The notes under the pieces are model-generated. The model was given only the letters and a program-made list of their open reading frames with translations, was not told the origin of the DNA and searched no databases. Of a DNA stretch of 14,133 nt, positions 9,709-12,032 are shown piece by piece; the stretch's first letter is position 1; every line of letters begins with the position of its first letter. A program made the position numbers and the translations under genes. This DNA is from Halobacteriales archaeon (lineage in GTDB: Archaea > Thermoplasmatota > SW-10-69-26 > JACQPN01 > JAIVGT01). The stretch is taken from NCBI GenBank assembly GCA_020201485.1, contig JAIVGT010000017.1:1-14133 (forward strand), written 5' to 3'.

Positions 9709-9717
9709 CTTATCTAA
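9709..9717 (+). promoter_or_regulatory. TATA-like box for the poly-G secreted-protein gene
   Basis: CTTATCTAA stands out from its surroundings, with its centre about 25 bases ahead of the ATG at 9738, the leaderless spacing. It supports 9738, not the internal GTG at 9829, as the true start of the secreted protein gene. Confidence 0.55.
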
Positions 9718-9737
9718 TTCGCCAGGCGTGCCTCGCC

Positions 9738-10515
9738 ATGCGCGGCCTCCACCTCGGAATCGGTTTTCTCTTGGCAACGCTCGCAAGCGCCGCCACGACC
9801 GGGGGGGGGTAGTCTCCCGTCGCAATCGGTGTTGAACGCTGATACCCTCCAAGTTGGCCAGTTCATCCCGGTTGGTCAGTCCGTGAATGGAGTGTGCCGG
9901 GCCGACGTCGAAGTCAACACCGTCACGTCCCTTATGGGCACGCCTCGTTGGCTCGACATCGCCCTTGGTCCGATGTGCGGGGTCACAGTCGCCTACGTCG
10001 GGACCGTTCCTCCCTTCCTTCTGGCCTCAACAGCACGGCCAGGACAGGAGACGCCCCAGGCTCCGTCCCCAGAGAGCGTCCCAGGCGTTGATTCCGTCTG
10101 CAAGACCGCGGAACAAGACGTTTTCATGTATGGCTATGGTGGCGAAGGAGACCAACTCACCCACAAGCATGGCACGCTCAGTTTCTGCTACAACGGGACG
10201 AATGCCTGGGGGACCGGCCAGAGCGGCACGTGTCAAGGCTCGGGCCATGGCTATTACAACTGGGTCTACGATTCATGCGTACTCGACCAGTACGTTCCGG
10301 GACCGCAACAGACCATTTGGCGGAAGGGACACGGGGCCTATCATTGCGACCCGATTCACGCGTTCCCATGCGACGTCTCGGCGAACGACGGTTACTACCC
10401 TTCGCTTTATGATACCGAGAGCGGGTACAACGAAGGGACGGGAATCTGTAGCTTCACGTACTCTGGGGAGATCGTCAGCGGAGTCGACAACCACATCGTC
10501 CAGGGATGCCCTTGA
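9738..10515 (+). CDS. Ten-cysteine secreted protein, frame broken by a G9 tract
   Basis: From ATG 9738 a signal peptide is read (MRGLHLGIGFLLATLASAA, then TTGGG) and stops at TAG 9810-9812, directly after nine G. The long frame that follows, open through 9829 (GTG) to TGA 10515, is in the next phase and has no signal peptide of its own. With eight G the two join as TTGGG-SLPSQSV and give a 258-residue precursor. The mature part has ten cysteines, many aromatics (GHGYYNWVYDSC, HGTLSFCYNGT) and Gly, consistent with a disulfide-rich extracellular beta-sandwich. I recognise no family. The gene is GC-poor for this window (35 of 60 bases at 9841-9900, against 43 of 60 at 12121-12180), suggesting recent acquisition. 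The membrane-protein gene overlaps its end by ten bases. As sequenced, only the unsecreted part from GTG 9829 could be made. Confidence 0.75.
9801..9809 (+). repeat. Homopolymer G9 tract at the frame break
   Basis: Nine consecutive G immediately after ACGACC and before TAG, the longest single-base run I noticed in the window. It sits exactly between the signal-peptide coding part and the mature-protein frame. A change by one base (to G8) would put them in register. Such tracts vary in length by slipped-strand pairing, and are also prone to sequencing error. Confidence 0.9.
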
Positions 10516-10901
10516 GCGGGCTCTGGCAGATTGCGCGTGTGCTCGCCCTAGTCTTCAGCGCCAGCGTGATGGTGCTGTCGGCATTCTTTTCCTTCGTTGG
10601 TGTGCCCAGCCAAGAAACCGCGGAAGGCGCAAGCGAGGCAACGCTCGCGTTCACGCCTGCGCCGATAGCGACCGCACCCCTCCTCCTCGCAGCAGCCTTG
10701 TGCGCAACGATTGCCATGCAGATTTCGATCTCGGTTCTGCCTTTGCTCCTTCTCACAAGTCTCCTGGTATTTGAAGGCTTCACCATTTTTGGAATCGGCT
10801 CCGATCTCCTGTTGCTCACTCTTCCCCTCCTCGTCCTTGTTCCGTTCTCGGCACGCCGCAAGCGCCGGTTCGTCAGCCGGTCGCCACCCGATGCCGCGTA
10901 G
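10506..10901 (+). CDS. Small membrane protein, unknown
   Basis: A 131-residue protein with three or four hydrophobic stretches: about 9-32, 48-71 and a long one from 73 to 113 that could cross twice. A basic C-terminus (SARRKRRFVSR) probably faces the cytoplasm. Between the first two segments is a short polar loop (PSQETAEGASEA). There are no enzymatic or transport motifs, and I do not recognise it. It starts inside the last codons of the ten-cysteine secreted gene (10-base overlap) and shares that gene's lower GC (34 of 60 bases at 10561-10620), so the two probably arrived together. A role in anchoring or exporting the secreted partner is conceivable but unsupported by any motif. Confidence 0.65.
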   Translation: MPLSGLWQIARVLALVFSASVMVLSAFFSFVGVPSQETAEGASEATLAFTPAPIATAPLLLAAALCATIAMQISISVLPLLLLTSLLVFEGFTIFGIGSDLLLLTLPLLVLVPFSARRKRRFVSRSPPDAA

Positions 10902-11312: not shown

Positions 11313-12032
11313 ATGCACAAGGGTCCCCTCGTCCTGACCGCGCTCCTGCTCGGGCTCACGCTCGCGGGGAGCGCGGCGGCGCAGACGCTCGACCAGTACG
11401 CGCTCCACGCCGCGCAGGGGGCGGCGGGCCAGGCGCAGGGCCAGCTCCGGCCGGACGACGTCGCCGGCTCCGTCGGCAGCGGCACGACCCTGTCCATCGA
11501 CATCGTCCGCGACTCCCCCGGCTTCACCGAGGCGGCCCTGTCCTACGGGCAGGAGCGCGCGCAGCCCTACGAGGACCAGCTCCTCGCCCAGCTCGACGCC
11601 GGCACGAGCGTCGCGCGCGGCGCCTTCGAGCAGGCGAACGCCGCGACCTGTCCGGCGTGCCACGTCGGCACCCTGCAGGGGCTGCTCGCGCCGTCGGAGA
11701 CCGCCACGCTCGACCTCGCGGCGCAGGCGGATGCGCCGGCCACCGTCGCCCTCGCGCACGGATTCGCCGCCCTCGAAGGGGCCAAGCAGGGCGCGACCCC
11801 CGACGCCGCCTGGGCGTGCCCGGCGACCCAGGAAAGCTGGGGCGCGATGTTCCACGACGCGCTCCCCCGCGACGGCGCGACGCTCGCCGCGGCCGGCGCG
11901 GACTACCTGGCCCGCGAGGTCCCGGCCCCGCCCCCGCCCGCCGACGGGCTGGGCGGCGTGGCGAGCGGAGCGCGCGCGCTCCTGCGCGACGTGCCCGGCA
12001 TGGCCGAGCCGGACTTCCCGACGACCTGCTGA
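11313..12032 (+). CDS. Secreted protein with one CxxCH (possible heme c) motif
   Basis: A 239-residue protein with an ideal ribosome site (GGAGG, six bases before the ATG) and a clear signal peptide: MHKGPLVL, a leucine-rich core, then SAAAQ, with likely cleavage near residue 23. The mature chain is Ala-rich and mostly helical. It contains one CPACH motif (C113, C116, H117), the form that binds covalent heme c, plus cysteines at 169 and 239. In a helical secreted protein this makes a mono-heme cytochrome plausible. However, no c-type maturation gene is in view and the distal ligand cannot be assigned, so a metal site or disulfide is an alternative. A Pro-rich stretch (VPAPPPPADG, 203-212) separates a short C-terminal part. 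The MFS gene begins 35 bases later. I do not recognise a family. Confidence 0.8.
   Translation: MHKGPLVLTALLLGLTLAGSAAAQTLDQYALHAAQGAAGQAQGQLRPDDVAGSVGSGTTLSIDIVRDSPGFTEAALSYGQERAQPYEDQLLAQLDAGTSVARGAFEQANAATCPACHVGTLQGLLAPSETATLDLAAQADAPATVALAHGFAALEGAKQGATPDAAWACPATQESWGAMFHDALPRDGATLAAAGADYLAREVPAPPPPADGLGGVASGARALLRDVPGMAEPDFPTTC

Follow-up and report, generated by a model that had tools for sequence, protein, structure and literature searches.

The G9 tract described here lies in a 14,133-nucleotide stretch of archaeal DNA (the window), between a predicted signal peptide and the register of a Cys-rich protein. The most likely single reading is that it forms a homopolymer contingency (phase-variation) locus, and we put the probability of this at roughly one half (0.52). 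Slipped-strand mispairing at replication would alter the tract by one base or more; one register would join the signal peptide to the secreted Cys-rich protein (ON), and the other two would terminate at or shortly past the tract (OFF). In the OFF state the overlapping downstream gene may also lose translational coupling, and the assembled sequence would represent an OFF allele. The layout of the locus, the change of register, the uniqueness of the tract in the assembly and six tracts at the same kind of gene in a relative (G003) are direct observations; from them we infer that the tract is unstable, that its changes are reversible, that the gene is expressed and that switching has a selected role.

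The features of the locus are collected in Table 1. Direct reading and recomputation confirmed the claim of the initial annotation that a signal peptide starting at ATG 9738-9740 runs into nine G residues and then into a TAG stop. Its further claims, that the next phase is open across the mature protein and that a TATA box precedes the start codon, also hold: shifted one base on, the sequence stays open past the tract for 234 codons, closing at TGA 10513-10515, and the midpoint of a TATA-like sequence lies about 24 bases upstream of the ATG. By register, the open codons past G9 number 0, 234 and 7, and a change in tract length would, by shifting the register, turn a truncated product into a full-length one or the reverse. 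The motif CTTATC stands upstream of 3 of 110 other genes in the sampled part of the same genome, 26-35 bases before the start, and in these three genes it occurs only at that distance and nowhere else within 80 bases. The signal peptides here and below were called by a simple home-made rule, not SignalP.

Table 1. Features of the G9 locus, in window positions.
Feature	Positions	Strand	Remarks
TATA-like box, CTTATCTAATT	9709..9719	+	Centre about 24 bases upstream of ATG 9738
Predicted signal peptide, 21 codons, MRGLHLGIGFLLATLASAATT	9738..9800	+	Best register by codon model; called by simple home-made rule
G9 tract	9801..9809	+	Sole G/C run of at least 9 in the assembly
TAG stop closing the signal-peptide register	9810..9812	+	Read from the sequence
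Predicted mature secreted protein, next register	9811..10515	+	234 codons past the tract, 10 Cys, GC3 0.70
131-aa hydrophobic protein	10506..10901	+	ATG overlaps the 3' end of the secreted gene

When codon usage was modelled from 61 genes of this genome, the signal-peptide register scored best over 9738-9800 (1.3 bits, with -12 for the runner-up), and the other register did so over 9829-10512 (-78.5 versus -229). Since the model picks different registers before and after the tract, the change of register at G9 is real. The negative absolute score of the second segment reflects the low GC of the gene: GC3 is 0.70 both for the secreted gene and for its follower, as against 0.91-0.98 in seven other window genes, a comparison that leaves out the eighth, 11314-12032, which was measured out of frame. 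The pair at 9738-10901 is GC-poor and without known relatives, among GC-rich neighbours; it is possibly acquired or fast-evolving, and its two overlapping genes are possibly co-expressed. The length of the open reading frame is by itself weak evidence for a gene, as open stretches of at least 265 and 237 codons turn up in 46 and 90, respectively, of 1000 Markov sequences.

Searches with the mature protein gave no match in Pfam, NCBIfam or PHROGs, nor among plasmids, phages, GTDB contigs and viral contigs, and the best E against PDB sequences, 0.21, was taken as chance. Among 389 genomes of the phylum, its own included, there was no convincing homologue; the only other match there, in G257 (E 0.006, 26% identity), was rejected, having two internal stops and overlapping an unrelated open reading frame. 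Because no relative of the mature protein was found, tract lengths are not comparable between homologues. The follower gene had no match in Pfam, NCBIfam, PHROGs or 40 relatives. Single-sequence structure prediction of the mature protein yielded a useless model (pLDDT 31.6). G003 carries the NYN neighbour at 53% identity, but the gene context differs, and synteny was rejected.

This picture of a GC-poor pair that lacks detectable homologues, and of a gene that no other phylum genome searched carries convincingly, accords with a plain frameshift, in which a G run present by chance slipped and so disabled a secreted gene, either fast-evolving or laterally acquired, that has not yet decayed further. 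The length of the tract fits as well: with 12 runs of at least 8, run-length decay in the sampled genome leads one to expect roughly one run of 9. Against it, the 234-codon register carries no other damage and the downstream gene is intact.

The genome itself is archaeal, its ribosomal protein L3 (on a sampled contig) scoring 407 bits against TIGR03626 and 53 against the bacterial model, and its assembly comprises 2.24 Mb in 404 contigs at 77% completeness. Distinct G/C runs reaching 8 number 12 in this assembly, G9 included. At the other 11, the codon model gave the same best register on both sides in seven and differing registers in four, and in these four an open, well-biased frame starts past the run or crosses it. 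No gene breakage was seen at any of the 11, and on these registers and frames the notion that the genome's runs of 8 point to more broken genes was rejected. The break at G9 is therefore a single event in its own genome, and is not thereby shown to be adaptive. Two of the genome's runs of 8 lie near signal-peptide-like sequences: L011 is a C8 run, and a signal-peptide-like protein has its first Met 64 bases further on; L012 lies within a signal peptide, in register.

A single event in a fragmented and incomplete assembly, at a homopolymer, where such errors occur, is also what an assembly or sequencing indel would produce, the true tract then keeping the gene in register. The initial annotation had offered phase variation, a fixed mutation and an assembly error as its three options. 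The window genome does not separate them, and it is G003 that tips the balance toward phase variation.

G/C runs of at least 9 were surveyed tract by tract in ten relatives. G003, which belongs to the same order as the window genome and to another family, has six such runs, of 9-11 bases (L064, L068, L072, L076, L080 and L083), and all six lie at the 5' ends of genes for predicted signal-peptide proteins. These proteins have about 206-256 residues (L072 and L080 counted past the tract) and 8-14 Cys, and 57-65% GC. The layout of the window locus is repeated at L080 on dissimilar sequence (blastp E 0.72): a signal peptide of 27 codons leads into G9, a stop comes one codon on, and 256 codons stay open in the next register. 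This register has no codon-position bias (GC1-3 0.58, 0.57 and 0.56) and leads the other five frames only slightly in amino-acid make-up; its status as a gene rests on being open, where the other five frames hold 5-15 stops each, and on its 14 Cys. The closest parallel to the window locus, L080, is accordingly itself only a putative gene. At L072, C9 comes right after ATGACT, just inside the start, with the core of the signal peptide in another register; its register is off in the direction opposite to that of the window locus and L080. All three coding-type tracts, in the window, L080 and L072, are thus out of register in their assemblies, an outcome that simple arithmetic puts at 30% by chance for a switch and that errors or decay would give equally.

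On our preferred reading, the remaining four tracts lie between a TATA-like stretch and the start codon. L076 and L083 have an AT-rich box followed directly by C11 or C10, and an ATG follows after a further 21 or 13 bases. In L064 and L068, which are paralogues, TTAAG precedes G9 and a GTG start follows 10 bases on; their TATA-like stretch is weak (6/8 A/T), and in an alternative reading an ATG 18 bases before the tract would place the tract inside the coding region. L064 and L068 share 87% identity over the 265 bases that hold promoter, tract and signal peptide but 47% between their proteins, which suggests that the exported part diverges fast. L080 and L083 share weak similarity (E 0.001 one way, 0.086 the other). 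The proteins of L064, L076, L080 and L083 gave no match against Pfam. As a weak measure of rarity, one GC-poor, Cys-rich secreted open reading frame was found in 323 kb of G003 by an ATG-only scan requiring codon bias, which by its rules could not find L064, L068, L072 or L080.

By itself, the window would be explained by either a fixed frameshift or an assembly indel. We prefer a contingency locus because both a fixed frameshift and an assembly indel leave the six of six G003 tracts at the 5' ends of one gene class unexplained. The plain frameshift, which would also have to accommodate four G003 runs that precede the start codon on the preferred reading, is in our judgement unlikely. An assembly indel appears still less probable: a similar layout and break recurs in another assembly, at L080, and an indel artefact does not account for where the G003 tracts lie. 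It is very improbable that the locus is instead recoded at the level of expression, with RNA polymerase slippage on G9 or ribosomal frameshifting at GGG-GGG-GGG-TAG yielding some full-length protein, for although none of the three coding-type tracts is in register in the DNA and slippage sites are described as often being homopolymers of eight or more (PMC3711429), the opposite sense of L072 is contrary to one programmed direction, the tracts between TATA-like stretch and start would go unexplained, and such indels are described in the same source as usually lying in motifs like runs of A or T.

The estimate for a contingency locus is held down by the weak coding signal of L080, by the lack of enrichment in other relatives and by the fact that length variation was not observed. 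How strongly G003 departs from expectation was assessed with a mechanical test, framed after its loci had been seen, in which a run passes if it lies at most 35 bases before the start of a signal-peptide open reading frame of at least 100 codons, or at most 130 bases inside it, the register past the run being left free. L064 and L068 share flanks and were counted once, leaving five distinct G003 tracts, all of which pass, compared to 255 of 2833 runs of 4-8 in 323 kb of the same genome (Fisher 6e-6). With an AT-rich box required, four of the five pass (L072, L076, L080 and L083), compared to 15 of 2833 shorter runs (7e-9).

In the nine other relatives, by comparison, 4 of 91 runs of at least 9 pass, and one of 91 does so with the AT-rich box; G003 compared with these relatives gives 2e-6. 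The passes are 0/5 in G002, 1/4 in G004, 0/19 in G005 and 0/19 in G006, together with 3/44 in G009, G011, G012, G013 and G020 pooled. The 91 come from 100 tracts; those too close to a contig end (two in G004, five in G006) were left out, and so was one more in each of G006 and G020. By this test there is no enrichment in G002, G004, G005 or G006, and G001, a relative in the family of the window genome, has no run of at least 9. An earlier ATG-only test of 45 tracts in G002, G003, G005 and G006 gave 6/45 and 3/45 in its two main classes, with 30/412 and 20/412 among control runs, and thus no clear excess in tracts. Under the host codon model, none of 30 tract loci of relatives had confident coding on both sides. 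The G9 tract of the window passes both forms of the mechanical test, with and without the AT-rich box. Enrichment is a property of G003; for the window genome it is only suggestive, because 109 of 958 of its shorter runs (about 11%) pass as well.

Several tracts of the other relatives deserve a comment of their own. The one pass in G004 (L130) looks like low-complexity chance. L079 of G002, which fails the test, has C10 directly past an ATG (tract at about 1501-1510) in register with a 110-aa open reading frame that by eye resembles a helix-turn-helix regulator; L075 of the same genome, with a TATA-like stretch and G11, has a similar look and also fails. Runs of 9-10 G/C lie 50-63 bases before an ATG at L073 and L102 (G006) and at L074 and L078 (G005), a distance that exceeds the 35-base limit of the test, and the genes downstream are signal-peptide or lipoprotein-like. 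A run of 21 occurs at L118 (G004), and in G010:C1, from about 95145, some 76 or more G in a row look like a sequencing artefact.

Would a run of this kind be prone to change? NucS is present in six of six relatives, and a review describes repair of the NucS type as unable to correct indels (PMC8228993), so that long runs may be left unstable in these archaea. NucS was not found in the window genome, which at 77% completeness may reflect an assembly gap. MutS domain V is absent from the window genome, G001 and G002, and comes near the cut-off in the other four relatives.

Held against what is expected of a contingency locus, then, a homopolymer long enough to slip is present in G9, unique in the assembly and judged unstable from its length only, and a surface or secreted product is predicted by the signal peptide and the 10 Cys of the mature part. 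Several loci per genome, beyond chance, would be expected as well: G003 has six candidates, the window genome has one, and G002, G004, G005 and G006 show no enrichment. More broadly, we tentatively propose that this archaeal order keeps a set of contingency loci which switch fast-diverging secreted Cys-rich proteins, a proposal to which we give slightly less than even weight. Two modes would be involved: a register mode, with the tract in or just past the signal peptide as in the window, and a promoter-spacing mode, with the tract between TATA box and start.

Most work on simple-repeat phase variation concerns bacteria. Databases are biased toward bacterial pathogens and commensals according to a 2025 review, which names archaea for future surveys (PMC11868660), and for the haloarchaeal virus phiCh1 a phase-variation system appears in a title cited in PMC9319562. 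Among the matches listed in the literature on archaeal homopolymer phase variation, as judged by titles and abstracts, there was no archaeal poly-G/C switch. If our reading is true, archaeal poly-G/C loci on secreted Cys-rich proteins would extend simple-repeat phase variation to another domain. Could it be a virus, a grazer or a competitor that these secreted proteins meet outside the cell?

Homopolymer loci in promoter spacers are known from bacteria, for example from fetA and porA of Neisseria. Four of the G003 tracts resemble them in lying, on the preferred reading, between a core-promoter-like element and the start, where tract length would change the spacing; they differ in that the spacing runs from an archaeal TATA-like stretch to the start codon or transcription start, and not between -35 and -10 boxes. 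A survey of 81 bacterial and 18 archaeal genomes describes homopolymeric tracts as 5'-biased in genes and proposes them as a means of gene inactivation (PMC2831843). The window and G003 tracts are likewise near gene starts, whereas in that survey poly(A)/poly(T) is reported as over-represented and poly(G)/poly(C) as generally under-represented. The meningococcal haemoglobin receptors are described as homopolymer contingency loci with the tract in the coding region (PMC3786947). Unlike them, the window locus has an archaeal-type promoter near the start, a single such tract in its genome and a protein without known relatives, and its switching is predicted from sequence; like them, it carries poly-G in the coding region, where a change of register would switch a predicted exported protein.
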